Shown here: piece by piece, positions 4,170-31,937 of the stretch | Layout: each line of letters opens with the position of its first letter | Position numbering within the stretch: the first letter of the stretch is position 1 | Assembly (NCBI RefSeq): GCF_021228795.1 | Contig: NZ_CP089309.1 | Coordinates: 1,674,001-1,738,000, forward strand | Reading direction: 5' to 3' | Source of the DNA: Thiocapsa bogorovii | Lineage (GTDB): Bacteria > Pseudomonadota > Gammaproteobacteria > Chromatiales > Chromatiaceae | DNA: 64,000 bases | Position numbers and translations under genes: made by a program | The notes under the pieces: model-generated | The model's input: the letters and a program-made list of their open reading frames with translations, nothing else | Database searches by the model: none | What the model was told of the DNA's origin: nothing

Positions 4170-4268
4170 GGGGCGCTATTCAGGGGCGCTATTCAGGGGC
4201 GCTATTCAGGGGCGCTATTCAGGGGCGCTATTCAGGGGCGCTATTCAGGGGCGCTATTCAGGGGCGCT
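4170..4268. repeat. 13-bp tandem repeat, seven full copies plus eight bases
   Basis: The unit GGGGCGCTATTCA is repeated seven times without a mismatch from 4170 to 4260, then GGGGCGCT starts an eighth copy. It lies 48 bp upstream of the fimT start codon, in the promoter region of the minor pilin operon, so copy-number change could affect its transcription (inference). There are no spacers, so it is not CRISPR. Confidence 0.97.
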
Positions 4269-15445: not shown

Positions 15446-15530
15446 GTGCATACCACCATGCTGCGTGTCGCCGACACGCCGGATCAGCTGGCCGTCGTCA
15501 TCGCGCATGAGATCGGCCACGTGCTACCCG
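15446..15530 (+). pseudogene. M48 metallopeptidase stump
   Basis: HTTMLRVADTPDQLAVVIAHEIGHVL contains the HExxH zinc motif of M48 peptidases (here HEIGH) in its usual setting. The reading then stops making sense at about 15530, where sequence from a response regulator on the other strand begins. Only about 28 codons remain. Confidence 0.6.
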
Positions 15531-15720
15531 TATTTGCATCCGCGGGCAGGCGGATGTCGAGCAGGACGATGTCGGGTGTGAGGTGCCGCAACAGCACCGT
15601 CAGCTCCGCGTCGCTGCCGGCTTGGAGGACATCCCAAACCTCCTGGCGGACCTCGTGGGAGACCAAGTCTCGGATAACCGGATCATCGTCGACGATAAGG
15701 ACCTGAATGATGCAAAAACA
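15530..15720 (-). pseudogene. Response regulator receiver-domain stump
   Basis: Reading the minus strand gives QVLIVDDDPVIRDLVSHEV, then LLRHLTPDIVLLDIRLP, which includes the acidic pocket DDD and the phosphoacceptor Asp of a CheY-like receiver domain. It is cut after RLPADANTG, where the M48 fragment on the plus strand begins, and it has no good start codon. About 62 codons remain. Confidence 0.65.
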
Positions 15721-15873
15721 CAGGTGACGTCGACGCGCAACACCGCACCCCGGCGGATGCTGGCCGACGCGGTCTCCGAACCCGAACGGAGCAACGCCGG
15801 GAAGACCCTCGTGCGGCAGCCCTTTTCGCCGCCCCTCGGCCGATCATCCCTCGCCGAATTCCCTGTCGCCGAT

Positions 15874-16356
15874 TCAATAGCGCCCGCCGGTCTTCAGCAT
15901 GTAATTCGCCAGCTCGGTGCGCTCGAGATTGACCCGCATCAGGTTCGTGTGGGTGATACGGAAGATCGCACGCATGACCTTGTAGACCAGCCGCGGATGG
16001 GTCTCGACAAGGGCCTCGAAATCGTCGGGTTCCAGGGTCAAAACGCTGCTGTCGTCCTCCGAGCGCAAGGCTGCCTTGCGTGCGGAGCCGTCGACGAAGG
16101 CACGGGTTCCGGCGCACTCGCCCGGACGCATCCGATACAGAGACTCCTCGACCCCGCCGACCGTCTTGCAGACGCATAGACGGCCCTCCGCCAGCAGAAA
16201 CAGGGTGCGCCGCTGCTCGTCCTCGGAGACCAGCAACTCGCCGTTGGTCAGCCTGACGAGACCCATGCACCCTGCAAGGACCGACGCTTCCGTCTCGTCC
16301 AGCTCGGTGCCGAGCTCCGAGCTGCGTAGTATTGCCGCCCGATCCATTTGATTCAT
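15874..16356 (-). CDS. Cyclic nucleotide-binding (Crp-like) domain protein without HTH
   Basis: 160 residues from the ATG at 16356. A single cNMP-binding beta-roll: GLVRLTNGELLVSEDEQRRTLFLLAEGRLCV, then GECAGTRAFVDGSARKAALRSE (phosphate-binding cassette position) and a C-terminal helix region FEALVETHPRLVYKVMRAIF. No helix-turn-helix follows, so it is not a classical transcription factor; it could be a sensory or partner protein. It lies 147 bp downstream of napB in the same direction and may be transcribed with the nap operon. Confidence 0.8.
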   Translation of the reverse strand: MNQMDRAAILRSSELGTELDETEASVLAGCMGLVRLTNGELLVSEDEQRRTLFLLAEGRLCVCKTVGGVEESLYRMRPGECAGTRAFVDGSARKAALRSEDDSSVLTLEPDDFEALVETHPRLVYKVMRAIFRITHTNLMRVNLERTELANYMLKTGGRY

Positions 16357-16503
16357 CGACCGATCTCCCGTTTCTCTCCAACACGATGGACAATGTGCAG
16401 CTGTCGTCCGCGCGCGCGGCAGCGGCGGACGCGGATCAATGTCCCGCCAGTTTAGCGCGTCGGATCGGGATGTGCCCCATCGGCGAAGCACGCTCGTAGC
16501 CGG

Positions 16504-16977
16504 TCAAGGCACGTCGAAATCATTTCCGACGAGCAGGTTCGCCTCGGTCTGCGGGACGTGGCACTGGGTACAGAAGTAGCGGGTTCCGATGATCTTCTTC
16601 TCGATCGTGCTCGGATCGCTGCGCAGGCTCACGTAATGGCTCTCGGGCATCGGAGAAGGCTCGGCCGCGTCCTTGTCCTGATCCCAGAGATCCTGGTCGT
16701 GATGACATTTCAGGCATTTATTGCTCTTCAGCGTAATGAGGCCGGACTCCTCGATGCTGTGCGGGATCAAGGGCGGCGCATCCTCGAACGCCGTCGGCAA
16801 GGTCGAGTCGGCATCCTCGGGATCGATCGAGAGGTAGTCGAAGCTCACCGGGTCGGGAGAATCGAAGACGGTCCCGCCAAGATCTTCGTCGATCCAGGAC
16901 AGGTCTTGTGCAAAGGTAAGGCTGCCGGCCAGAACGACCCCGACGACGAGCGCGAGGGAACGGGGAAGCATGGTCAT
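16504..16977 (-). CDS. napB: NapB, diheme cytochrome c subunit of periplasmic nitrate reductase
   Basis: 157 residues with a signal peptide (MTMLPRSLALVVGVVLAGSLTFAQ). Two heme-attachment CxxCH motifs are present, CLKCHH and CTQCH, with the nearby His ligands of NapB. It carries electrons to NapA in the periplasm. The ATG at 16977 overlaps the stop of napH by 4 bp. It is the last structural gene of napDAGHB. Confidence 0.95.
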   Translation of the reverse strand: MTMLPRSLALVVGVVLAGSLTFAQDLSWIDEDLGGTVFDSPDPVSFDYLSIDPEDADSTLPTAFEDAPPLIPHSIEESGLITLKSNKCLKCHHDQDLWDQDKDAAEPSPMPESHYVSLRSDPSTIEKKIIGTRYFCTQCHVPQTEANLLVGNDFDVP

Positions 16978-17861
16978 GGGTGATCCTCCTTCGTGATGAG
17001 CGGATGCCGCGCCGGAGCGGAGCCGGGACCTGGTTGATGTAAGCGCCAACCGAATGCCAAGCTCTTCTCCGGGCAGATCGGGATACAACGCGCGCAATTC
17101 GTACATTCCCCCGAGACGACCTGACCATCCTGCGCGAGCCGTTTGAGGTTCAAGACCTGAGGTTCCGGGCAGATCGCTTGGCATTTCCCGCAACCGCTGC
17201 AGCTGGCTTGATCGAATTTGACCCTGACCTGGGCGGTATGGCGCCCGACCACGGAATAAAAGGCGCCGAGTGGACAGAGGTGACCGCACCAACCGTGCTT
17301 GACGACCAGCCAGTCGAATAAGAAGAGACCGACCAATGCGGTCCAACCCAAACCCAGACCGAAGATGATCTCGCGATGCATGGCCCCGATCGGGCTGACC
17401 CATTCGAATGACGGAAGCTCGATTAAGATCGACAGCAGCAGGGCGAGCGCCAGCACCGTGTATCTCAGGTGGCGAGGAATCCCGAAGAGGTTCCTGCGCC
17501 AGGTCTTGCGGTGCAGAAATCCCGCAAAGTCGGTGACTGGATTCACCGGACAAACCCAGGAGCACCACACCCGGCCGCCCAGGATCATGAAAACGCCTAA
17601 GACCAGCGCCGCGCCCAGAAGCTCCTCGAGTTCAGGGAGGTGCCCGGTCAGCAGGATCTGGAGCGTCGCGAAGGGATCGGCGAGCGTCACCTGACCGAGA
17701 ACCTCCGATGCACTGAGGTTGCCGCTCAACACGGGGAAACCGAAGAAAGACCAGCCCCAATGCAACGTGCCGAAGAACATCAGCAAGACGCCGATCTGAA
17801 CGACTCGCCGCAGAATCAAGTGGCGCCAGCCCCAGAGGCGAGTTGACGTTGCCCTATTCAT
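16974..17861 (-). CDS. napH: NapH, membrane quinol dehydrogenase component
   Basis: 295 residues with about four transmembrane helices (for example VVQIGVLLMFFGTLHWGW and YTVLALALLLSILIEL). Between them are the CxxxCP motifs WCSWVCPVNP and WCGHLCPLGA typical of NapH. The C-terminus has two 4Fe-4S clusters: CSGCGKCQAICPEP and CTNCARCIPICPEK. With NapG it passes quinol electrons to NapB/NapA. No napC is present, so this pair is the likely electron entry point. A 314-bp structured repeat separates it from napG. Confidence 0.95.
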   Translation of the reverse strand: MNRATSTRLWGWRHLILRRVVQIGVLLMFFGTLHWGWSFFGFPVLSGNLSASEVLGQVTLADPFATLQILLTGHLPELEELLGAALVLGVFMILGGRVWCSWVCPVNPVTDFAGFLHRKTWRRNLFGIPRHLRYTVLALALLLSILIELPSFEWVSPIGAMHREIIFGLGLGWTALVGLFLFDWLVVKHGWCGHLCPLGAFYSVVGRHTAQVRVKFDQASCSGCGKCQAICPEPQVLNLKRLAQDGQVVSGECTNCARCIPICPEKSLAFGWRLHQPGPGSAPARHPLITKEDHP

Positions 17862-17874
17862 CGGGTTTCCGAAT

Positions 17875-18150
17875 CGAGGCGTGGCGCGGAGCGCCAGGCG
17901 ATGCGTGACACCGCCGGAGCAGTGTCACGAGTGAGCGCGCCTCGGCGAATAGGGTAACGCGTCTTACCGAATTGTTCGAAAGACCGGTCTGCAGGGACAA
18001 GCAAGCCTGTAGGGTGCACGAGCGCGAGCGAAGTCCACCGAGCCCTGCGCCGACGCTTCAGTGGCTCGTAACACCCGCTCTGCGGTGTCGCGCATGCCCC
18101 GTGGCGCTCTGCACCGCGGGGCACGATGGCCGCAGAGGCGAGCAAGGCCG
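17875..18150. repeat. REP/BIME-like pair of structured repeats between napG and napH
   Basis: Two related units in inverted orientation. Unit 1 has an outer stem CGAGGCG (17875-17881) / CGCCTCG (17938-17944) enclosing TGGCGC-GGA-GCGCCA (17882-17896) and CGTGACAC / GTGTCACG (17904-17911, 17922-17929). Unit 2 on the other strand has ACACC / GGTGT (18071-18088) and TGCCCCGTGG / CCGCGGGGCA (18095-18123). Read on opposite strands both contain GCGGTGTCxCGCAT followed by TGGCGCTC. A third hairpin-like stretch, GTAGGGTGCACGAGCGCGAG, starts at 18009. Such elements often modulate mRNA stability or attenuate transcription in operons. Confidence 0.75.
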
Positions 18151-18175
18151 GCGTCGGCTGCCGATTGCTCGTCAT

Positions 18176-18943
18176 CTAAAACTCCGCCTGATTCAGATAA
18201 TCCAGCCCGGGCACCTGACCCTGCTCCGGTGCGGAATCCAGTCGTCCCTTCCGGGTTTCGCCTGCATCGGGACCGGACATCGCGCCGTCTGCCTGCTTCC
18301 ATCCCATCCTGAAGTGGTCGCCGATCTTGCCTTGAATCAACTCGGCGGGAAGCACCTTGATGGCCGCGATCTGGGTCGGACAGGCATTCTCGCAAATTCC
18401 GCAGCCCGTGCAGCCCGCGCTGAGGACCATGGGCAGAAGCATTGCGTGCTTGCTCAATTCACGCCGTCGGGTTTCGACGTGGATGGCTTTGTCCCGAAGC
18501 GGGCACACCCGATAGCAGATCTCGCAACGCAGACCCTGCCAGGAGAGACAATTCTCGGTGTCGATGAAGGCAAGACCCATCCGCGAGTCCATGACCTCGT
18601 CGAGCGTCGGTGACAGCGCACCGGTCGGGCAGGCGGCCTTGCAGGGAATGTCGTGGCACAGGTAGCAGGGGATCTGTCGGGGCTCGAAACAGGGTGTTCC
18701 CAGCGGAGCGCGGTCGCCTAAGGCGGCCAGTTTTAAGGTGTCGTAGGGACAGGCGACGACGCAACGTCCGCATTTGATGCAGAGGGCATTGAAGTCCGCA
18801 TCCGGCAGCGCACCGGGCGGGCGCAGGGCCGATGGTTCGGCGCGGGCGTTCTGAATGACGAGATACGACCAGAGCATACCGCCACTCGTGGCGACGGCTG
18901 CGCCCTGGATGCTCTTCTGTATGAAACTGCGCCGCGTTGTCAT
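18176..18943 (-). CDS. napG: NapG, periplasmic 4Fe-4S ferredoxin-type protein
   Basis: 255 residues. A Tat-type leader (TTRRSFIQKSIQGAAVATSG) has the twin-arginine RRSF. Four [4Fe-4S] motifs follow: CIKCGRCVVACP, CYLCHDIPCKAACP, CEICYRVCP and CTGCGICENACP. It works with NapH in quinol oxidation for periplasmic nitrate reduction. The ATG at 18943 is chosen because the Tat motif starts right after it. It follows napA by about 90 bp. Confidence 0.95.
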   Translation of the reverse strand: MTTRRSFIQKSIQGAAVATSGGMLWSYLVIQNARAEPSALRPPGALPDADFNALCIKCGRCVVACPYDTLKLAALGDRAPLGTPCFEPRQIPCYLCHDIPCKAACPTGALSPTLDEVMDSRMGLAFIDTENCLSWQGLRCEICYRVCPLRDKAIHVETRRRELSKHAMLLPMVLSAGCTGCGICENACPTQIAAIKVLPAELIQGKIGDHFRMGWKQADGAMSGPDAGETRKGRLDSAPEQGQVPGLDYLNQAEF

Positions 18944-19036
18944 GATCGGTGATTCGCCGGATGTGATGAAGGCATTCGGCTCGCTCGGATGCGTGCGCCA
19001 CATCCGAGTACTGTCGAAGGAGCCGAGGAGGCCGCA

Positions 19037-21781
19037 CTACACCTTGTAGATCTTGATCGCGGTCTTCTTGAAATCCTCCTCCTTGGAGATCGGACAGGTC
19101 GCGTCGATGCAGAGCTTATTGACGAATACCGATTCGTCGAAAAAGGCCATGAAGCTATAGCCTCGCGGCGGACGATTGCGACCGGCAGTCTCGATCACCG
19201 CCTTGATCTTGCCGCGTCGGGATTCGATCCAGACCGCATCCTGACGCTTGAGCCCGCGCTCCTCGGCGTCCTTCTCGTTCATGTCCAGGACCGCCGCCGG
19301 CATGGCCCGATGCAGCTCGGGAACGCGGCGCGTCATGGTGCCGGTATGCCAGTGCTCGAGCAGACGCCCGGTGCAGAGCCAGAGGTCGTAGTTCCCGTCG
19401 GGCGACTCCACCGGTGCGGCGTAGGGTCTGAAGAAGATCTTCGCCTTGCCGGGGAATTTGGTCTTCTCTTGGGTCGTAGGACCTTTTAGATCTCCGCTCA
19501 CCAGCTCCTTCATGGCACCGCCGTAAAACTCGATCTCGCCGGTCTTCACATAGGGATCGTATTTGGCGTTAAAGCGCCACGGCGTCTCTTTGCCGTCGAC
19601 GACGGGCCATCGCAGGCCGCGCACATCGTCTTGATAATAGACATCGAAAGGCGCGAGGTCGTGATGATGACCGCGCCCGAAGGCGGCATACTCTTCGAAC
19701 AACGCCTTTTCCACAAACCAATCCACGCCGAGATGCTTGACCGTGTGATTGTCGTGTCCTTTGGCGACCGGATCGGGCCAAGCAAACGCCTTGTTCTCCG
19801 GTGTCTCGAAGAGCGCTTCGTATAAGGTCATCTCGGGTCGATAGCCCATCTCCTGTGCCGCCGCCATCACCTCCGGGAGCCTCCCCTCGTCGAATCCTTC
19901 GTCCTTGAGACCGGGAATCGATTGTTCCTTCCAGACCTCCGCCAAGGTGATGCGTTTGGAAAACTCCAAGATCTGCCACAGGTCGCTGCGCGCCTCACCG
20001 GGTGGGGGCACCTGCTCGCGCCAGACCTGCGTGCGTCGCTCGGCGTTCCCGTAGCCACCCCATTTCTCGAAAATCATAGCCACGGGCAGGATCAGATCGG
20101 CCACCTTGGCCGAGATGCTCGGATAGGCATCGGAGACGACAATGAAGTTGTCTTGCTCGCGTGCCGCCTTCAGCCAATGGTTGGCATTGGCGACATGCTG
20201 GAAAGGATTATTGACCTGCACCCAAACCCACGAGATGGAGCCGTCTTCCAGGTCCCGCATGATCTTGGTGATGTGGCTCCCGGGTTTCGGATTGAGCGTC
20301 TTGGGCGGCAGCTTCCAGGTCTGCTCGGTAATGTCGCGATGCTTGGCGATATCCACGACCATGTCGGCCGGCAAACGGTGACTGAAGGTACCGACCTCGC
20401 GAGCCGTGCCGCACGCGGAAGGCTGGCCGGTCAGTGAAAAGGGGCTGTTGCCGGGCTCGGCGATCTTCCCCAAGAGCAGATGCACGCTGTAGATCTGCTC
20501 GTTGACCCAGGTCCCGCGGACATGCTGATTGAATCCCATGGTCCAAAAACTGACCATCTTTCGATCCGGCTCGGCATAGAGATCGGCCAGCCTCACGAGC
20601 TTGGCCTTGAAGGCATCCAAGGACTCCTCGGCGTCACCCTTGGCCAGCTCGGCGACAAAATCCAACGTGTAGGGCTCGACCCCTGCCTTGAAGTCCTCGA
20701 AGCCGACCAGCCAATGTTTGCCGGCGGTTGCCGCATCATCCTGTTTGATCGTGTGCACCTGCTCCGGATCCAGACCGCGCCCGATGGCCTCGTCCCGCGT
20801 CAAGGTGACCTCGATCTCGCGGGCCTGGATATCCTTCTCGGCATCGAAGGCGAACTTGTCCGTCGCTCGCATCCCATAACCGATATCGGTGGGGCCGGCA
20901 CAAAAGACACAGTGCGCGTCGACGAAGGCTTTATTGACCGCATCGCGGTGGATGATCTCGCGCGCAAGGTAGTTCAGCAGTGCCGTGTCGGTGTTCGGCT
21001 TGATGATGATCTCGAGATCCGATCCTTCCGATGTCATGTTCCGAAAGGTCGTGATATTGACGACCTTCATCTCGGGATGACCGAGGCGCCGGTCGATCAC
21101 ACGTTGCCAGAGGACCGGATGGGCCTCGGCCATATTCGCGCCCCAGGCGACGACCGTATCCGTGTATTCGATGTCGTCGTAGTTGCCGGGCGGCTCGTCG
21201 ACTCCGAAGACCTGCATAAATGCAGCGACCGCCGAGGCCATACAGTTGCGCGCGTTGGGATCGATGTTGTTGCTGCGAAGACCAGCCTTCATCAGCTTGG
21301 TCATCGCGTAGCCTTCCTGGATCAGCCATTGGCCGGAGCCGATCACGCCGATCCCGGTCGGACCTTTTTCTTCGTAGGCCTTCTTGAACTGGATCGCCAT
21401 CTCGTCGAAGGCCCGATCCCAGGTCACCGGTGTGAACTTGCCCTTCTTGTCGAACCGACCGTCGGTCATCCGCATCAAGGGCTGCGTGAGGCGATCTTTG
21501 CCATAGAGGATCTTGCCGTTGAAATAGCCCTTCACACAGTTCAGACCGCGATTGACCGGGGCGTCGGGATCGCCCTTGGTCGCGACGATCTTGCCGTCTT
21601 GGGTCGCGATCATGATCCCGCACCCCACACCGCAGAAGCGGCAGACACCTTTATCCCATCGCCAATCCTGCTCGGTCTCGGCTGCCGCAACGGCGGCGAT
21701 GCGGCTGATGGGGATTCCGACGGCCATGGCCGTCGCGGCTGCGACGCCTGATTTCAGAAAGGTACGGCGGCTGGGCTCCAT
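19037..21781 (-). CDS. napA: NapA, periplasmic nitrate reductase catalytic subunit
   Basis: 914 residues. Tat leader [19 protein letters not shown], then the [4Fe-4S] motif [10 protein letters not shown] with its fourth Cys in GLNCVKG, then bis-MGD molybdopterin domains. The Mo ligand is the Cys in [10 protein letters not shown]. The C-terminal cofactor region includes [20 protein letters not shown]. It is longer than the E. coli enzyme (about 830) and closer to the longer NapA type; the additions lie mainly around residues 330-380. It reduces nitrate to nitrite in the periplasm. Of two adjacent ATGs, 21781 has the better spacing to GGAGGA; 21784 is possible. Confidence 0.97.
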
Positions 21782-21846
21782 CATTCCTCCTCGATCTCGT
21801 TCTATTTCTTGATCGCTCACCCGCGCGAGTCGGGCGAGGATGTGGT

Positions 21847-22125
21847 CTAGGACTCGGCCATCTCCGCGGGGATCGCATCCCATTCCGGCGGTGTTTCGTC
21901 GAAGACGTGGTAGACCATCTCGGCCAGCATCACGCCGGGCAACGCCTTGATGCGACAGAGCGCAGCGACCTCCCCTTCGACCGTCTCGGCCTCTTGTACG
22001 ACCACGATCCGCCCGGTCGCAGGCACCGTGTGATGGACCTCGACGCCGGGCAACACATTGAGCGCTAGCGTTGTGTTCTCGACTCGGGCGGGCGGGACGA
22101 CGACCAGGATGCCTGAGAGATTCAT
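21847..22125 (-). CDS. napD: NapD, NapA signal-peptide chaperone
   Basis: 92 residues starting [16 protein letters not shown], the ferredoxin-like NapD fold, with the [22 protein letters not shown] strand pair typical of the family. NapD binds the Tat leader of NapA during cofactor loading in the cytoplasm. It is the first gene of the operon; GGAG lies 9 bp before the ATG, and a perfect FNR box lies about 74 bp upstream. Confidence 0.93.
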
Positions 22126-22192
22126 CGGCGGGTCTCCGGGCTCGGGTTGGTTTTGAGTGTCCGGACGCTAGCGCCGCCGCTGACGAGAAACC

Positions 22193-22206
22193 TTGATCCC
22201 CATCAA
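22193..22206 (-). promoter_or_regulatory. FNR/Anr binding site upstream of napD
   Basis: TTGATCCCCATCAA is a perfect match to the FNR consensus TTGAT-N4-ATCAA. Its centre is about 74 bp before the napD start codon; a transcription start near 22158 would put it at -41.5, the class II activator position. It predicts activation of napDAGHB under low oxygen. It also lies about 90 bp before the nrtB remnant on the other strand. Confidence 0.85.
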
Positions 22207-22290
22207 GAATCGCGAGCGAATGATCCGAGCGTGCCAAGGCTTCGCCGAGCCGAGTTGAGTCTGGCTCGCTGTTTGCCTTTACTAATCTCT

Positions 22291-22642
22291 ATGCCGACGG
22301 TCGCTCGTGACCTGATGAACGTCAGCCGTGTCCTGCGGCTCTCCTGGTTCAAGCAGACGGTCAAGATCATCCTGCCGTCGGCCTTGCCGATGATCTTCAC
22401 GGGGCTGCGGCTGAGCCTCGGGATCGGCTGGATGGTGCTGATCGCCGCGGAGATAGATGTTGGCCCAGAACCCCGGCCTCGGGAAATTCGTCTGGGACGA
22501 GTTCCAGAACGGCAGCTCCAACTCGCTGGCGCGGATCATGGTGGCCGTGTTCGTGATCGGCTTCATCGGCTTCGCGCTCGACCGCGGCATGCTCATGCTT
22601 CAGCGCCGCGTCTCCTGGGACAAGTCGGCGGTGCTGCGATGA
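22291..22642 (+). pseudogene. nrtB: NrtB nitrate ABC transporter permease, 3' fragment
   Basis: The C-terminal third of an NrtB/SsuC-type permease: MNVSRVLRLSWFKQTVKIILPSALPMIF and GLRLSLGIGWMVLIAAE. The frame is then broken by four extra bases (ATAG near 22453) and resumes as [20 protein letters not shown] to the end. The N-terminal two thirds are missing. It is followed by nrtC in the normal order. Confidence 0.85.
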
Positions 22643-22694
22643 CCCGCCCTGTCAATTGCTCCGACCCCATGACCGTCGCACGAGGATCCAAGGC

Positions 22695-23539
22695 ATGTCT
22701 GTCTATCTGAGCATCGATCGGGTCGGGATCACCTTCCCGACACCGAAGGGACCGCGCGAGGTCCTGAAGGACATCAAGCTCGACATCGCCCAAGGCGAGG
22801 TCGTCTCGCTCATCGGCCACTCGGGCTGCGGCAAATCGACCGTGCTGAACATCGTCGCCGGGCTGCTCGAAGCGAGCGTCGGCGGCGTGCTCCTTGAAGA
22901 GCGCGAGGTCAAATCGCCGGGCCCGACCGCGCCGTTGTCTTTCAGCAGCACTCTCTGCTGCCGTGGCTGACCGTCTACGACAACGTCCGCTTGGCCGTCG
23001 ACCAGGCATTCGGTCGCGGCAAGACCCGCAAGGAGCGGCATGAGTGGACCCTGCACAACCTGGATCTGGTGCACATGGGGCACGCGCTGGAGCGCCGCCC
23101 TGCAGAGATCTCGGGCGGGATGAAGCAACGCGTCGGTATCGCCCGTGCCCTGGCCATGGAGCCCAAGGTCCTGCTGATGGACGAACCCTTCGGGGCGCTG
23201 GACTCGCTCACCCGCACACACATGCAGGATTCCCTGCTGGAGATCCAGGCGCGGCTCAACAACACCGTCATCCTGATCACGCATGACGTCGACGAGGCCG
23301 TGCTGCTCTCCGACCGCATCGTGATGATGACCAACGGCCCCTCCGCGACGGTCGGGCGGATCCTGGATGTCGACCTGCTGCGCCCCCGCGACCGACTCGC
23401 ACTCGCGGAGGATCCCACCTATCACCACTACCGCGCCGAGGTCGTGAAATTTCTTCACGAGCGGCACGCACCCGCGGCCGCGCAGTCCGGAAAGCCGGCG
23501 CGCGAGCGTCCGGCGTTGCGTCTGGCGGCGAACGGTTAA
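22695..23539 (+). pseudogene. nrtC: NrtC/NrtD nitrate ABC transporter ATPase, frameshifted
   Basis: Walker A GHSGCGKST and the ABC signature SGGMKQR with Walker B VLLMDEP are all present, but in two frames. One base is missing near 22925: the first frame reads KSPGPTAPLSF, the other VVFQQHSLLPWLTVYDNV, which is the expected Q-loop continuation. With one base restored it would be about 280 residues. It could be a very recent mutation or a sequencing error. Confidence 0.85.
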
Positions 23540-23551
23540 GGGAGCAAACAC

Positions 23552-24901
23552 ATGGGCATCATCCCCGATTGGCTCAGACGCAGCGCGCACGCCGGCGGGC
23601 GCGACGGACTGGAAAAGACACGCCTGACGCTCGGCTTTATCCCCCTGACGGACTGTGCACCCCTGGTCATCGCCAAAGAACGCGGTTTCTTCGAGAAGTA
23701 CGGCCTGGACGTGGAACTCTCCAAGGAGACCTCTTGGGCGAACGTTCGCGACAAGGTGAGTATCGGCATCCTGGACGGCGCCCACATGCTCGCACCCATG
23801 CCGATCGCGAGCACGCTCGGCATCGGTCCGGTCGAAAAGCCTACCGTCACGGCGCTGAGCCTGGATCTGAACGGCAACGCCATCACGGTCTCGCAGGCAC
23901 TCTACGAGCGGATGCGCGAGCTGGACCCAGGCGCCATGAACCACCGGCCCTACTCGGCGGTGGCCTTGAGGCAGGTGATCGAGGAGCGGCGCGCGCAAGG
24001 CGGCAAGCCGTTGACCTTTGCAGTGGTCTTCCCGGTCTCGACCCATGCCTACGAGCTGCGCTATTGGATGGGCGCCGCCGGGATCGATCCGGATACCGAC
24101 GTGCGGCTGCTGGTGGTCCCGCCGCCGCAGATGGTGACCCAACTGCGCGCCGGCAACATCGACGGGTTCTGTGTCGGCGAGCCTTGGAATTCGGTCGCCG
24201 TCGCCGAGGGTCTCGGGCGTGTCCTCATCACCAACTACGAGCTCTGGAACAACAACCCCGAGAAGGTCTTCGGGGTCAATCTGGAGTGGGCCGAGCAGTA
24301 TCCCAATACACACCGCGCCCTGCTCATGGCCCTGTTGGACGCAGCGCGCTGGACCGATGCGCCCGAGAATCGCGCGAGCGTCGCCGAGCTGATCGCGCCG
24401 AGCCGCTACATCAATGCCCCGGTCGAGATCGTGCGTCAGTCCATGACCGGCACCTTCCGCTATGCGCTCGACGAGGCGCCGGTCGCGATGCCCGACTTCA
24501 ACGTCTTCTTCCGCTTCGCCGCGACCTATCCCTGGCGATCCCACGCGCTCTGGTTCCTGACCCAGATGGTGCGTTGGGGCCAGATCGAGAAACCGATCGA
24601 TCTCGCCGCCGTCGCGGCCGAGGTCTATCGACCTGACCTCTATCGGGAGGCGGCCGATGCCTTGGGTCTCGCCTCGCCCGCGCTCGACCACAAGCGCGAG
24701 GGGTTGCACGCGCGCGGCTGGATGCTCGAAGGGGCAAGCATCCCGCTGGCGATGGGCCCGGATCGCTTCTTCGACGGATTGACCTTCGATCCCGCCGATC
24801 CGGTCGGGTACATCGCCGGTTTCGACGTCCAGCGCCGTGCCTGCTCGCTGGAGGCGCTGGCGGCGGCGAACGGCGGCCCGGCCACGGCGGCGACGGTCTG
24901 A
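23552..24901 (+). CDS. NrtA/NasS-family nitrate-binding protein, no signal peptide
   Basis: 449 residues of the CmpA/NrtA periplasmic-binding fold: LGFIPLTDCAPLVIAKERGFF, GILDGAHMLAPMPIA, the hinge QLRAGNIDGFCVGEPWN and GVNLEWAEQYPN. The N-terminus has no Tat or Sec signal. This favours a cytoplasmic nitrate sensor (NasS-like, which would control a NasT antiterminator not seen here) over a transporter subunit, though its place after nrtBC fits transport. GGAG lies 9 bp before the ATG. It is intact although the genes on both sides are broken. Confidence 0.83.
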   Translation: MGIIPDWLRRSAHAGGRDGLEKTRLTLGFIPLTDCAPLVIAKERGFFEKYGLDVELSKETSWANVRDKVSIGILDGAHMLAPMPIASTLGIGPVEKPTVTALSLDLNGNAITVSQALYERMRELDPGAMNHRPYSAVALRQVIEERRAQGGKPLTFAVVFPVSTHAYELRYWMGAAGIDPDTDVRLLVVPPPQMVTQLRAGNIDGFCVGEPWNSVAVAEGLGRVLITNYELWNNNPEKVFGVNLEWAEQYPNTHRALLMALLDAARWTDAPENRASVAELIAPSRYINAPVEIVRQSMTGTFRYALDEAPVAMPDFNVFFRFAATYPWRSHALWFLTQMVRWGQIEKPIDLAAVAAEVYRPDLYREAADALGLASPALDHKREGLHARGWMLEGASIPLAMGPDRFFDGLTFDPADPVGYIAGFDVQRRACSLEALAAANGGPATAATV

Positions 24902-24952
24902 GGCCGGTCGCAACGCGCCCCGACACACGAATTCCCGACGCGGAGAACCAGC

Positions 24953-27116
24953 ATGAACCCCGATGGCATGAACAAAGAACGTTTGGTCCTGGTGGGCAAC
25001 GGCATGGCCGGGATGCGCACCATCTGTTGAAGCTGGAGCCTGACCTCTACGAGATCACGGTCTTCGGCGCTGAGCCGCATCCGAACTACAACCGCATCCT
25101 CCTCTCGCCGGTGCTCTCCGGGGAGAAGACGATCGACGAGATCATCCTGAACAGCCTCGACTGGTACGCCGAGCATGGGATTACGCTGCACACCGGCGAT
25201 CCGGTCGAGCACATCGACCGTCGCAAACGCTTGGTGCGCAGTCGGTCCGGTCTGGAGGTGCCTTATGACCGGCTGATCCTGGCGACCGGATCCAACCCCT
25301 TCATCATCCCGGTACCCGGTGCGGATCTGCCCGGCGTGCTGGGATATCGCGACATCGCGGATGTGGAGGCGATGATCGAGACCGCGCGCGGCTTCAAGCG
25401 CGCCATCGTCATCGGCGGCGGACTGCTCGGACTCGAGGCCGCCTACGGTTTGCAGCAGCAGGACATGGAGGTGACCGTCGTGCACCTTCTCGACACCCTG
25501 ATGGAGCGGCAGCTCGATAAGCCTGCCGCGGCGCTCCTGAAGGCGTCGTTGGAGCAACGCGGGCTGACCTTTCTCATGGAGGCCCAAAACGCGGCGATCC
25601 AAGGGCGCGACCGCGTCGAGTCGGTCCGCTTCGCCGACGGCAGCGAGGTCGCGACCGATCTGGTGGTGATGGCGGTCGGCATCCGCCCGAACATGACGCT
25701 CGCCCAGAGCGCCGGGATCCATTGCGAGCGCGGGATCGTGGTCGACGACACCATGCTGACCTACGACGCCCGCATCTACGCGATCGGCGAGTGCGTGCAG
25801 CACCGCGGGCAATGCTACGGCCTGGTCGCGCCGCTCTTCGAGCAGGCCAAGGTCTGCCCCAATCATCTCGCCAAGCTCGGCTACGGCCGTTACCAGGGCT
25901 CCGTGACCTCGACCAAGCTCAAGGTCACCGGCATCGATCTCTTCTCGGCCGGTCAGTATGCAAGGGGGAGATCGTCAAGGCGATCACGAGCAAGGGGCTC
26001 TTCACGCTCGAAGACGTCAAGCTGCACACCAAGGCGGCGGCCTCGTGCGGGTCCTGTACCGGCCTGGTGGAGCAGATCCTGGCGAGCACGCTCGGGAGCG
26101 ACTACTCCACACCCGAGGCGAAACCCATCTGCACATGCACAGACTACAGCCACGATCAGGTCCGCGCGGCGATCCGCGAGCAGCACCTCACGAGCCTGAG
26201 CAACTGCTTCGAGAAGCTCGACTGGCGTCAAGCCAACGGCTGCCATATCTGCCGGCCCGCGCTCAACTACTACCTCATCTCCACCTGGCCGGCGGATGCG
26301 ATCGACGACAGCCAGTCGCGCTTCGTCAACGAGCGTGTCCACGCCAACATCCAGAAGGACGGGACCTATTCGGTCATCCCGCGCATCTTCGGCGGCGAGA
26401 CCTCGCCGGCCCAGCTGCGCGCCATCGCCGAGGCGGCCGAAAAATATGCCGTGCGCTCGGTCAAGATCACGGGCGGCCAACGGATCGATCTGCTGGGCCT
26501 ATCCAAAGAGCAGCTGCCGCACATTTGGAAGGATCTGACCGACGCCGGTTTCGTCTCGGGCCATGCCTACGGCAAATCGATGCGCACGGTCAAAATCTGT
26601 GTGGGGTCCCAATGGTGCCGCTTCGGCGTGCAGGATTCGACCAAGATGGGCATCGAGCTCGAGGAGTTGAACTGGGGCTCCTGGACCCCGCACAAGTTCA
26701 AGCTGGCCGTCTCTGGCTGCCCGCGCAACTGTGCGGAGGCGACCATCAAGGACTTCGGCGTCATCGCCATCGAATCCGGCTGGGAGTTGCACATCGGCGG
26801 CAACGGTGGCGTGAAGGTCCGCGCAACCGACGTCCTCTGCCGGGTCACCACACCCGAGCAGGTCAAGGAATACTGCGGCGCCTTCATGCAGCTCTATCGC
26901 GAAGAGGCACGCTATCTGGAGCGCACCGCGCCCTGGGTCGAGCGGGTCGGCCTCGCCTACATCAAGAAACGCATCGTCGAGGACGAGATCGGACGCCGCG
27001 CCTTCTACAAGCGCTTCCTGGAGTCGCAAACGCAGGCCCAGGTCGATCCCTGGAAGGCACGCGCGGCCGGCGCGCAAGCGCATGAGTTCACGGCGTTAAA
27101 GCAGGTGAATGGGTGA
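24953..27116 (+). pseudogene. nirB: NirB, NADH-dependent assimilatory nitrite reductase large subunit, broken
   Basis: Three pieces. The start LVLVGNGMAGMRT stops after 24 codons because several bases are lost near 25024. The FAD/NAD half (LYEITVFGAEPHPNYNRILLS, VIGGGLLGLEAAYG) runs to LFSAGQ near 25955. It then joins VCKGEIVKAITSKGLFT in another frame, missing about 90 residues. The siroheme/4Fe-4S half is complete: CVGSQWCRFGVQDS and SGCPRNCAEA. Intact NirB is about 840 residues; this sums to about 715. It is a true pseudogene, as the internal deletion is too large for a sequencing error. Confidence 0.9.
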
Positions 27117-27130
27117 GAGAGAAGGATGAT

Positions 27131-27249
27131 AGCTGTTAGCTGTTAGCTGTTAGCTGTTAGCTGTTAGCTGTTAGCTGTTAGCTGTTAGCTGTTAGCTGTT
27201 AGCTGTTAGCTGTTAGCTGTTAGCTGTTAGCTGATAGCTGATAGCTGAT
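27131..27249. repeat. 7-bp tandem repeat (17 units)
   Basis: Fourteen perfect copies of AGCTGTT (27131-27228) followed by three of AGCTGAT (27229-27249), lying between nirB and nirD. It is a pure short-unit array without spacers, likely variable in copy number. Confidence 0.98.
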
Positions 27250-27304
27250 ACCAGGCTGCCGGATGCACGACGCCCCAAACACCGCACCAACACGAGGCTA
27301 CACA

Positions 27305-27640
27305 ATGACTGCAGTCGTCGACGACATGACTTGGCTTGAAGTGGGTACGCTCGATGAGATCCCTCGCCAAGGTGCGAGGGTGCTTAAACGCGAACAGGGT
27401 GATATCGCCGTCTTCAGGACCGCGGCGGACGAGGTGTTCGCCTTGCTCAACCGTTGCCCGCATCGCGGGGGGCCCTTATCGGAGGGGATCCTTTACGGGC
27501 GAAACATCGTCTGCCCCCTGCACAATTGGTGTCTCGATCTGGCGAGCGGCGAAGCAAAGGGGCCGGACGAGGGTTGTGCGCCCGCCTATGCGACGCGGGT
27601 CGAAGCCGGCCGGGTCTTCGTCTGCGCAGAACCCAATTAA
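27305..27640 (+). CDS. nirD: NirD, nitrite reductase small subunit (Rieske type)
   Basis: 111 residues from the ATG at 27305, chosen for GAGG 8 bp upstream. It is a Rieske-like domain with the [2Fe-2S] ligand motifs CPHRGG and CPLHNW, so it keeps both Cys-His pairs that many NirD proteins have lost. It supports NirB in reducing nitrite to ammonium. It is intact although nirB is broken, which suggests recent loss of the pathway or another partner. Confidence 0.9.
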   Translation: MTAVVDDMTWLEVGTLDEIPRQGARVLKREQGDIAVFRTAADEVFALLNRCPHRGGPLSEGILYGRNIVCPLHNWCLDLASGEAKGPDEGCAPAYATRVEAGRVFVCAEPN

Positions 27641-27712
27641 ACCGCGCTCCGCGCAGTATGCGATGTTTGTTGGATGGGATCGGTCTTCGCGGCCTTGACT
27701 AGCACTGGAGCC

Positions 27713-27755
27713 GGCGCGGTTTAAGATATTAAAAAATATGATTTTAAACCGCGCC
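27713..27755. repeat. 12-bp inverted repeat with AT-rich loop
   Basis: GGCGCGGTTTAA (27713-27724) and TTAAACCGCGCC (27744-27755) are exact reverse complements around a 19-base AT-rich loop. A further half copy (TTAAACCGCGC) lies at 27637-27647, overlapping the nirD stop. It could be a terminator for nirD or a small dispersed palindrome. Confidence 0.8.
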
Positions 27756-27930
27756 CCCACCAAAGGTTCCGGATCCACTAAACGTCGAAATCACTCGAAA
27801 ATGAGCATCCCGCTATTGACGCGGTCTAGCGGCAGGCCGTCGCCGTTCATCCGTTTTTCGGCGATTGCCGGAAATTCGATACCCGCTACTGACGCCCTCG
27901 CGAAGGCGCGACGATCACGGAGACAGGACG

Positions 27931-30615
27931 ATGACCGAACCGAGCAAGACAACCTGTCCCTATTGCGGCGTGGGCTGCGGGGTGCTCGTCACGCCGCAGT
28001 CCGACGGAACGGTTTCCGTCCGCGGCGATCCGGATCACCCGGCGAACTTCGGGCGTCTCTGCTCGAAGGGCGCGGCCCTCGGCGAGACGCTCGGGACCTC
28101 GGGACGACTGATCCATCCGAGGGTCGCGGGCGAGCGGGTGAGCTGGGATCGGGCGCTTGATCGGGTCGCCGGTCGTCTCGGCGAGATCGTCGCCGAGCAC
28201 GGACCGGAAGCGGTCGCCTTCTATGTCTCGGGTCAGCTCCTGAACGAGGACTACTATGTCGCCAACAAGCTGATGAAGGGCTTCATCGGCGGCGCGAACA
28301 TCGACACCAACTCGCGGCTCTGCATGGCCTCGAGCGTCGCCGGCTACAAGCGCGCCTTGGGTGCCGACACCGTGCCCTGCGACTATAGGGATCTGGAAGC
28401 CGCCGAGCTGATCGTCCTGGTGGGCTCCAACACCGCCTGGTGTCACCCCGTCGTCTACCAGCGGATCAAACAGGCAAAGCAGGCCAATCCGGACCGCCAA
28501 ATCGTCGTGATCGGTCCGCGCCGCACGGCGACCTGCGAGATCGCCGACCTGCACCTGCCGATCGCGCCCGGCACGGATACCGTCCTCTTCAATGGTCTGC
28601 TCAACTGGCTCAGACGCGAGGACGCGCTGGACTGGACCTTCTTGGAGACGCACACCGAGGGTTTCGCCGCCGCTTTCACCGCCGCACGCGAGTCAGCCGG
28701 CTCTGTGCCGCGCGTCGCCGCCGCCTGCGGCGTCCCTGAATCCGACCTCGCCGATTTCTACCGGCGCTTTGCCCGCACCGAACGGGTTGTCACGCTCTAC
28801 AGCCAAGGCGTCAATCAATGGTCGTTCGGGACCGACAGGGTCAACGCCATCATCAATTGCCACCTGGCGACCGGACGCATCGGCCGATCCGGCATGGGGC
28901 CGTTCTCGATCACCGGACAACCCAATGCGATGGGCGGACGCGAGGTCGGCGGATTGGCCAATCAGCTCGCCGCGCACATGGACTTCGCACCCGAGGACGT
29001 CGATCGGGTCGGGCGCTTTTGGCAAGCCGACGGCATCGCCCGCGCGCCGGGCCTCAAGGCGATCGAGATGCTGCGGGCGGTTGAAGAAGGCAAGATCAAG
29101 GCGATCTGGGTGATGGCGACCAACCCGGCCGTGAGCATGCCCGACGCCGATCGGGTGCGTGCCGCGCTGCAGGCCTGCGAGCTCGTCATCTGCTCGGACC
29201 TCTTCGCCGACACCGACACCGCCCGCTGTGCCGACGTGCTCTTGCCCGCCGCGGGATGGGGCGAGAAAGAAGGCACCGTCACCAACTCGGAGCGGTGCAT
29301 CTCGCGTCAGCGCGCCTTCCTCGATCCGCCCGGCGAGGCGCGTCCGGACTGGTGGATCCTCACCGAGGTGGCGCGCCGCATGGGGTTCGACGATGCCTTC
29401 CCGTATCGCTCGGCAGCCGAGGTGTTCCGCGAGCACGCTGCCCTGTCCGCCTTCGAAAACGACGGACGACGCGACTTCGACATCGGCGCCTTGAGCGATC
29501 TCTCGGCGAGCGACTACGATCGGCTCGCCCCGATCCAATGGCCGCGCCCGGCGTGACGTGAAGCCGCACGCCTCTTCGCCGACGGCCGCTTTTACACCCC
29601 GAACGCCAGGGCGCGCTTCGTCGCGATCGCGCCGCGACCGCCCGCGACCGCGCCGGACGAAGACTATCCACTCGTGCTCAACACCGGCCGCATCCGTGAC
29701 CAGTGGCACACGATGACCCGCACCGGCCTGACGCCACGCCTGAACAGCCACATCGCCGAGCCCTTCGTGCAGATCCATCCGGTCGACGCCGCCGCACACG
29801 GCCTCGGCCGGGGCGGCATCGCCGAGCTGACCAGCCGCTGGGGTCGGATGCTGGCGCGTATCGACGTCGATCCCGATCAGCGCCCCGGCTCCGTCTTTGT
29901 CCCCATGCATTGGAGCGACATGCTGGCCCGCCAAGCGCGCGCCGATGCGCTGGTCAATCCGATCACCGATCCCGTCTCCGGGCAGCCCGAGTTCAAGCAC
30001 ACGCCGGTACAGGTGCGCCTCTTTCGCGCCGCTTGGTACGGCATTGCACTGAGTCGTGAGCGGCTTCCGGTCCCCGACGGCACGCCGCGAGACCTGACCG
30101 TCCCGCAGCCCGACTACTGCGTCGCCGTCCGAAATCAGGGCTTCTGGCGCACCGAGATCGCCGGCCGCGAACTCATTGAGGACTGGGCCGACTGGGCACG
30201 CGGAGCATTCGGCGCGGACGGCGCATGGCTGGACTTCGCCGACGTCGCACACGGCCGCTATCGCGGCGCCCGTATCGTCGACGGACGCCTCGCGGCCTGC
30301 CTCTTCATCGCCCCGTCCCCGAATCTGCCGAGCAGCCGCTGGCTCGGCGAGCTCTTCGGCGCGGCGCAGCTCGATACCCGCGCCCGCACCGGTCTCCTCG
30401 CCGGCCGACCGCCGCGCGGCCAGGTCGACGCCGGCGAGACCGTCTGCGCCTGCTTCAACGTCGGCCGCACGCGCATCGAGCAGGCGATCCGCAGCGAGGG
30501 CCTGAGGTCCACCGACGCCATCGGCGTCTGCCTGCAGGCCGGCACCAACTGCGGGTCCTGTCTGCCCGAGTTGGGTCGTATCCTGGAGCAAACGCTCGAC
30601 CGCGGCGCGGCGTGA
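27931..30615 (+). pseudogene. nasA: NasA assimilatory nitrate reductase with in-frame stop
   Basis: The frame from ATG 27931 to 30615 is continuous for 894 codons except for TGA at 29554-29556 (codon 542). After the stop it continues without shift as REAARLFADGRFYTP, the expected sequence, so a CGA-to-TGA type change is likely. Domains: [4Fe-4S] CPYCGVGCGVL with GRLCSKG, molybdopterin domains with NSRLCMASSV, and a C-terminal BFD-like [2Fe-2S] domain CACFNVG...CLQAGTNCGSC. AGGA lies 5 bp before the ATG. Readthrough or sequencing error are the alternatives to a pseudogene. Confidence 0.9.
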
Positions 30616-30714
30616 ACGGGGAGCACAATCGGACTAGAATCCGCGGACACTCGAGCCCCTGACCGCGCCACTCATTGGTCCGGTCGGGCTCAACCCCTTG
30701 ATGAGGAGAACCTC

Positions 30715-31152
30715 GTGTCCGAACTGCAGGAAACCGCGTCCGAGCCCGCCATCGTGCAAGCGGTGCGGCGTCTTCCCCCTGCCGAGCAGCAGTTGCTTTT
30801 GGCGTGGGCGCGCGGCGTCGGCACCATCCGTTACGGGACATTGCGGGGCTTCAAGAAGGCGGGGGCCATGCTCAAGCTCACGCGCGATCAAAAGGCCGCG
30901 TGGCCGCTTCTCAAGGTCCTGTCGTTGGCCGTGAAGCATACCCTCTGGGACGCGCGTTCTTGGACCGTGCGACTGGGCGTCGGGGCCGTTCTTGCCACCT
31001 TTATCGCGGTCGACAACGGAGGGGCGGGTATCGTGGCGCTGGGGGGCGGGATCGGGCTCCCGCTGTGGATGTTGATTGGCGTCGGCGGCGCCTCAGCCGG
31101 CCTCCTGGCGGACAAGATCAAGGCACGGACGACGGCGCGTCGCAGCGCATAG
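30715..31152 (+). CDS. Small membrane protein of unknown function
   Basis: 145 residues starting with GTG, with GAGGAG 9 bp upstream. The N-terminal half is soluble (IVQAVRRLPPAEQQLLLAWA). The C-terminal half has two hydrophobic helices (LGVGAVLATFIAV and IVALGGGIGLPLWMLIGVGG) with a short Asn-Gly turn. No domain recognised. It follows nasA by 99 bp and may share its transcript. Confidence 0.6.
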   Translation: MSELQETASEPAIVQAVRRLPPAEQQLLLAWARGVGTIRYGTLRGFKKAGAMLKLTRDQKAAWPLLKVLSLAVKHTLWDARSWTVRLGVGAVLATFIAVDNGGAGIVALGGGIGLPLWMLIGVGGASAGLLADKIKARTTARRSA

Positions 31153-31454
31153 TTCGGCCGGTCATCCGATCGGTGCTTGCGTTGACCAGAGACCTGGTGA
31201 CCTCGGGCTCTCGACCGATCGCCTTGATTCATTGCGATCGTCGAGCATTGGCTCGCCGCGGGGATCGCCGCGGTGGATGACCCGGCACGTCCGACGATCA
31301 TCAGCGACGCCGAGAATCACAACGTGACCTCGGTGCGCGCGGCACTCGCGACGCTTCAACGGCATCGGCAGACCGCCGAAGCCGTCGCGGGGATCGGTCG
31401 GCACGGGCCGGGCCAAGGTGCGTCCCGATCAGCGACAACCGGCTCGATTCTTTC
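31153..31454 (+). other. Possible gene remnant
   Basis: From about 31226 the plus strand encodes a protein-like stretch, IAIVEHWLAAGIAAVDD, then PTIISDAENHNVTSVRAALA, ending near 31395 without a start codon. I do not know its family. The rest of the 300 bp holds nothing I can name. Confidence 0.35.
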
Positions 31455-31937
31455 TTATCGGCCCTCGCCTTCCGACCCAAGACCCGCGTCGGCGTCCCGG
31501 ACCTTTACAAGCGCGACGGCGTTCATGCAGTAACGCAGTCCACTCGGTTTCGGGCCATCGGGAAACACATGACCGAGATGGGCGCCACAGGTGTTGCAGG
31601 TGGTTTCGACACGCAGCATGCCGTAAGCGTTGTCGCCGTGGTAAGCAATCGCATTCTCCTTGACGGGTTGCGTAAAGGACGGCCATCCAGTGCCGGAATC
31701 GAACTTGTGTCGAGCGTCAAACAATAAGGTGTCGCAACAGACGCACGCATAAAGCCCGGGCTCGAATAGGCTGCACATCTCCGAACTGAAGGGCCTTTCG
31801 GTGCCCTTCTGCCGAGCGACTCGATATTGCTCGTCGGTCAGGTGCAGACGCCACTCGGCATCGGTCTTTTCAACGACTCTGTCGGGTTTCAAGTTTCCGG
31901 TCTCGAGGAAACGAGTGACGTCGTGCCAAGTCAACAT
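31455..31937 (-). CDS. msrB: MsrB, peptide-methionine (R)-S-oxide reductase
   Basis: 160 residues, no signal peptide. Two zinc-binding CxxC pairs (CVCC, CNTC), the substrate motif FDSGTGWPSF, the HLGHVFPDG strand and the catalytic Cys in RYCMNA are all in order for MsrB. It repairs methionine-R-sulfoxide in oxidised proteins using thioredoxin. The ATG at 31937 fits family length; the ribosome site is weak. A half-size transporter gene lies 83 bp upstream. Confidence 0.95.
   Translation of the reverse strand: MLTWHDVTRFLETGNLKPDRVVEKTDAEWRLHLTDEQYRVARQKGTERPFSSEMCSLFEPGLYACVCCDTLLFDARHKFDSGTGWPSFTQPVKENAIAYHGDNAYGMLRVETTCNTCGAHLGHVFPDGPKPSGLRYCMNAVALVKVRDADAGLGSEGEGR

Follow-up and report, generated by a model that had tools for sequence, protein, structure and literature searches.

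NasS-NasT operons, known for example from Paracoccus denitrificans, carry an ANTAR regulator beside an ATP-binding cassette (ABC) transporter (accessible parts of PMC3795266 and PMC5424462), and the NasS-NasT complex parts on sensing nitrate or nitrite, freeing the RNA-binding NasT (accessible part of PMC3795266). Intact congeners of Thiocapsa bogorovii share this arrangement and add nirBD, nasA, a second binding protein that is NrtA-like and a strong terminator in the leader, in the order nasT-like, nrtABC, nasS-like, nirBD and nasA. Here we analyzed a 64,000-nucleotide stretch of the purple sulfur bacterium T. bogorovii BBS (contig NZ_CP089309.1, a single-contig genome of 5,649,927 bases, positions 1,674,001 to 1,738,000; hereafter the window), in which the locus is unlike these operons: the nasT-like gene, the leader, nrtA and the 5' part of nrtB are missing, and what is left of nrtB is broken, as are nrtC, nirB and nasA (Table 1). 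From alignment with congeners, we consider it very probable that this locus is a degraded assimilatory nitrate operon with six inactivating lesions. The operon for the periplasmic nitrate reductase (napDAGHB), adjacent and divergent to it, is open.

Lesions were scored by DNA alignment of the cluster with three congeners whose frames are open, namely G004, G002 and G007. The nearest congener, G004, is about 93-95% identical in DNA over window positions 22295-29915 and has an intact cluster; frames are open throughout the cluster in G004 and G002, and in G007 as far as its contig reaches, past nirD to a point inside nasA. The six lesions are a 3,423-bp deletion, four duplicated bases in nrtB, one lost base in nrtC, losses of 7 bp and 283 bp in nirB, and a nonsense codon in nasA. 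Together they affect uptake through nrtA, nrtB and nrtC, the reduction of nitrate by nasA and of nitrite by nirB, and the regulator along with its leader. The lesions are far above the background, because the control comparison of G002 with G004 over the eight nas genes (10,713 bp in G004) revealed no frame-breaking insertion or deletion (indel) and a single in-frame 3-bp indel. G007 showed compensated or in-frame changes only, from the nasT-like gene to nirB, with its nirD too diverged for an indel count. The preliminary description, made from the letters of the window alone, had proposed decay of this cluster, and the open frames of the three relatives support loss in the window.

The largest lesion removed 3,423 bp that are present in G004, where its ends carry the direct repeat ACGGTCGNTCG with 10 of 11 bases alike. 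The deleted piece encodes a 193-aa response regulator with an ANTAR domain (PF00072 and PF03861; L048:800-1378), NrtA and most of NrtB, together with a leader containing a terminator hairpin. The missing 5' part and four extra bases that the preliminary description gave for nrtB were both recovered; its account fell short in extent, as the missing part is the end of this deletion, which also took the nasT-like gene, the leader and nrtA. The nasT-like gene is also found in G002 and G007. In the G004 leader, a hairpin with a long, nearly perfect stem and a U-tract lies at L048:1916-1966, about 45 nt before nrtA, and this stem-loop with U-tract is conserved in all three intact genomes; it is likely an attenuator under control of the NasT-like protein. 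Paired A1-G4 hexaloop hairpins are the motif of ANTAR targets, and a simple but strict scan for them (stem of at least 5, no bulges) gave none in the three intact leaders. Rfam returned four matches on the G004 leader, all below the gathering score, and no match over that score in window positions 15500-31500.

The smaller lesions are spread over the remaining genes. The 4-bp insertion in nrtB is a tandem duplication of AGAT at 22451-22458, and nrtC has lost one G from a GGGG run at 22919-22921, the one-base loss already noticed in the preliminary description. In nirB, the early and the internal losses proposed there were both found: 7 bp are missing at about 25024, followed by a stop at 25028-25030, and the internal loss between 25959 and 25960 measures 283 bp, not about 270 bp. 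An 11-bp insertion lies directly upstream of the nirB start, near 24951; this insertion and the small lesions of nrtB, nrtC and nirB stand relative to all three congeners. The in-frame TGA expected in nasA occupies 29554-29556 and is codon 542 of 895, counting the stop; G004 and G002 read GGA (Gly) there, and these two form the comparison, as the G007 contig ends before the position. Recoding or read-through was considered as a rescue of the cluster and rejected, since the 283-bp and 3.4-kb losses cannot be bridged. Taken together, the decay is ordinary gene loss, part-way, with nothing new in kind. Like bacterial pseudogene clusters left by loss of a dispensable pathway, the window sets small indels and a nonsense change beside larger deletions, with sound flanks; its 3.4-kb deletion ends in a short repeat, whereas the ends of the 283-bp one show practically none. 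Searches of titles and abstracts on Thiocapsa nitrate metabolism and genomes and on nitrate-assimilation pseudogenes, nirB and gene loss brought up no report of this degraded cluster.

A second nas/nir set elsewhere in the genome could have replaced the broken genes. With G004 NirB as the query against 11 genomes of the genus, long matches of at least 93% identity were obtained in G002, G004 and G007, two separate pieces (residues 13-338 and 427-813) in the window's genome, and a 42-residue stub in G003; all remaining listed matches in the 11 genomes were at most 39% identical, and G001, G005, G006, G008, G009 and G010 had no listed match above 38%. NasA matched in full in G004, G002 and the window (one TGA inside a 93% identical match), in pieces in G003, and over 104 residues (67%) at the contig end of G007, with other matches in the genus at most 40% identical. 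No second NirB or NasA was found in the whole genome of the strain, and this result, together with the congener comparison, supports loss of nitrate assimilation with Nap kept, as had been suggested. A locus near 2101141-2103738 with NMT1_2 and ABC genes, about 67% identical in DNA to nrtC, was rejected as a second set, as no NirB or NasA match lies there. Ammonification by NrfA was likewise rejected, the best PF02335 match in the genome reaching 20 bits, below the cut-off, in a search that left other nitrite reductase families outside; the genome paper, as far as its text was accessible, lists a cytochrome c-552 nitrite reductase (PMC10892978).

By this route the cell would be unable to take up nitrate and reduce it to ammonium, and would presumably live on ammonium, urea or N2. 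nifH scored over the cut-off in 9 of the 11 genus genomes, including the window's, with G003 and G007 as exceptions. According to the accessible part of the genome paper, BBS does not grow with a KNO3 supplement, is short of genes for nitrate assimilation yet has a nirD, and carries nifHDK and 124 putative pseudogenes; the large subunit of an NADH nitrite reductase is listed among the genes present (PMC10892978), and that part contains no description of the decayed cluster. The finding bears on this published call of the large subunit, the sole close NirB match in the genome being the broken gene. The lesions offer a likely genetic cause for the reported lack of growth with KNO3 in a strain studied for its hydrogenase, and they correct the annotation, although the deposited GenBank annotation may already flag these genes; tools that count gene fragments as present would wrongly predict nitrate assimilation. 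As to the course of events, a single deletion taking the regulator, the leader and the start of the transporter may have been enough to silence the operon; the downstream genes would then have been hardly useful and further lesions neutral. The reverse order, with small lesions before the deletion, is equally possible on present data.

Several points weigh against a degraded operon. The lesions were read from the assembled sequence and not from raw reads, the 1-bp loss of nrtC sits in a G run, and the statement on KNO3 comes without a description of the test (accessible part of PMC10892978). The names NasT-like and NasS-like are based on domains and context, as neither the regulator nor the 449-aa binding protein scored over the cut-off of a dedicated NCBIfam NasT or NasS model. 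Substitutions alone do not prove relaxed selection either, since the nonsynonymous rise is small and, on the BBS branch, nap (66 nonsynonymous and 156 synonymous changes) is no different from nas (p 0.92). Counting branch changes by parsimony with G002 as the outgroup, we obtained 81 nonsynonymous and 184 synonymous changes in six nas genes on the BBS branch versus 38 and 142 on the G004 branch (Fisher p 0.029), and 73/148 versus 33/115 (p 0.026) in the four broken genes; rpoB went in the opposite direction (3/136 in BBS and 12/94 in G004, p 0.005). At best, these counts hint weakly at relaxed selection, in keeping with recent decay, and the loss, which had been called ongoing, is so only in the sense that remnants persist, the rise being slight.

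A rival reading takes the lesions for sequencing or assembly errors in an otherwise working operon; Nanopore reads did form part of the assembly (accessible part of PMC10892978), and the nrtC lesion is a single base in a G run. The hybrid assembly was, however, Illumina-corrected, growth with KNO3 was reported to fail (same source), and napA, napD, napG, napB, rpoB and nifH are open in the same genome. A 4-bp tandem duplication, deletions of 7, 283 and 3,423 bp and a nonsense change are atypical errors; except for the single base of nrtC, the lesions are not of the homopolymer type. Error is hardly credible.

The degraded operon still contains two genes, nirD and the NrtA/NasS-like gene, whose intactness had been pointed out before and whose frames are indeed open. 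Most simply, they are open because no lesion has struck them yet, which is unremarkable, because on a rough estimate about 1.7 of 8.3 kb could escape about five hits. Their ratios of nonsynonymous to synonymous substitution rates (dN/dS) against G004 are low (0.054 for the NasS-like gene, 0.022 for nirD), as would be expected if the NasS-like protein, NirD or the N-terminal part of NasA still worked in another process and the locus were being remodelled instead of plainly decaying. Low values are also seen for the broken genes (0.073-0.165), so the signal mostly reflects the time before breakage; moreover, NasS without NasT and NirD without NirB are left with no known partner. Remodelling is accordingly very unlikely.

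A second congener has lost the cluster in its own way. G003 keeps nap and the downstream gene; its nasT-like gene and 5' nrtA are deleted, and five internal deletions of about 213, 348, 3,676, 540 and 377 bp are accompanied by two 1-bp losses, with the caveat that this is a draft of 390 contigs in which assembly collapse at junctions is possible. Of the six window lesions, three fall in stretches that G003 has lost, and it shows none of the three that are left for comparison: the 5' part of its nrtB is kept, the 4-bp duplication is not there, and its nasA pieces are free of stops. As far as the alignments go, decay in BBS and in G003 is best read as separate, because G004, which is nearer to BBS than G003 is in the rpl-rpoBC tree (support 100/100), is intact. 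This bears on whether the BBS cluster broke in laboratory upkeep on ammonium and not in nature. BBS was isolated in 1969 (accessible part of PMC10892978), and so close a congener as G004 keeps the cluster intact, as decay in culture would allow; yet for six separate lesions to gather in a single operon within about 50 years is, in our judgement, a lot, G003 was shredded separately, and the slight nonsynonymous excess hints faintly at some longer time without constraint. We regard laboratory decay as unlikely.

Other members of the genus lack the cluster. Between the nap upstream region and the sequence that follows nasA, G010 has 12 bp and G008 about 180 bp, and neither has a nas cluster. In a tree of a 7.1-kb rpl-rpoBC stretch from 10 genomes, with G007 left out and support given as Shimodaira-Hasegawa-like approximate likelihood ratio/bootstrap, G010 and G001 form a group (99.5/99) whose neighbour is the carrier G002 (98.4/95), and the carriers G003, G000 and G004 lie apart from them; for G010 and G001 this placement favours loss over original absence. 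G008 branches outside G010/G001 and the carriers (85.9/84). The nap tree differs, with G008 beside G002 and G007 (99.8/99), and synonymous distances between the window and G002 are 0.19-0.33 for six nas genes and 0.27 for napB versus 0.52 for napA and 0.42 for rpoB; for the nasT-like gene the distance between G004 and G002 is high (0.54). Parts of the region were likely exchanged between species, which leaves no firm count of separate losses. No stop interrupts the matched stretch of rpoB in any of the 10 genomes that have a full copy, among them the window's (the G007 row covers 1,305 of the 4,140 aligned positions). Separately, G007 shows a step in divergence (L032 12192-14005), the 3' end of nirB being 87% and nasA 68% identical to the window against 92% for the rest of the cluster, which suggests a recombination break inside nirB.

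Among pseudogene clusters, Thiocapsa is notable only for holding intact (G002, G004, G007), part-decayed (BBS), shredded (G003, at least six deletions) and absent (G001, G008, G010) states within one genus, with nap kept in seven of the eight genomes, and it thereby offers a comparison of stages in operon loss. We would give an even chance to the idea that these states form a natural time series of the recurrent loss of one pathway, pointing to repeated selection against nitrate assimilation or to its repeated dispensability. If so, this would concern sulfide-fed phototrophs in which N2 is mostly fixed, and interspecies exchange of the empty site may have helped. In a sample of 116 genomes of the family, in which G003 and G004 are not among the listed rows, a NirB match reached E 1e-60 or better in 49, and the remaining 67 had none at that threshold. 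The window's best match alone fell below the family cut-off, in two pieces; among the 48 above it, G024 and G071 are split over contigs, and in G020 and G090 a single stop interrupts the match.

Beside the decayed cluster, the nap operon on the opposite strand is maintained. The nap gene names used here follow in part the preliminary description. napA, napD, napG and napB have no indel against G004, and the freedom from lesions claimed for napDAGHB proved sound, the sole indels being a mutually compensating pair of 1-bp changes near the end of napH. nap was matched over its full length in G003, G004 and G010, over the contig-covered part in G002 and G007, and in G008 except for one spacer of about 307 bp; in G001 both nap and the nas cluster are missing at the corresponding place. 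This spacer, between napG and napH (17839-18145), is spanned by matches in G003, G004, G007 and G010 and is absent in G002 and G008, and sections of it have inverted matches at other sites.

Table 1 Features of the degraded nitrate assimilation locus and its surroundings in the window
Feature	Position	Strand	State or description	Basis
Assimilatory nitrate cluster	22291-30615	+	degraded, remnants	congener alignment
Junction of 3,423-bp deletion	22297-22307	.		comparison with G004
nrtB remnant	22297-22642	+	ABC permease, last third (full-length G004 NrtB, 343 aa)	congener alignment; PF00528 in G004 NrtB
nrtC	22695-23539	+	ABC ATPase, 1-bp deletion	alignment
NasS-like/NrtA-like binding protein	23552-24901	+	449 aa, open	PF13379, E 3.5e-96
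nirB	24968-27116	+	pseudogene	alignment and profile matches
Heptamer tandem array TAGCTGT	27130-27247	+	16.9 copies, between nirB and nirD	
nirD	27305-27640	+	111 aa, open	TIGR02378, 88.0 bits (cut-off 74.65)
Dispersed palindromic repeat element	27634-27831	.	between nirD and nasA	
nasA	27931-30615	+	in-frame TGA	alignment and NasA protein search
nap operon	16504-22125	-	intact	open reading frames and indel count against G004
napD	21847-22125	-	open	
napA	19037-21784	-	open	
napG	ends at 18176	-		4Fe-4S Pfam domains
napH	16974-17861	-		4Fe-4S Pfam domains
napB	ends at 16504	-	open	

Repeats were also noted in and near the cluster. For the TAGCTGT array, an exact three-unit probe found one other site in the genome, a short one, and the gap between nirB and nirD is about 80 bp shorter in G004 than in the window. 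The palindromic repeat 3' of nirD is about 195 bp long, has the ends TTAAACCGCG...CGCGGTTTAA and a strong predicted fold. From 168 first-look candidates in the genome, 40 places were scored, comprising the window copy and 39 others at 75-81% identity, and 18 of the 40 were aligned. Similar ends occur 3' of the nasT-like gene in G002, G004 and G007. Farther away, window positions 4170-4268 hold a perfect 13-bp tandem array, GGGGCGCTATTCA, in 7.6 copies.

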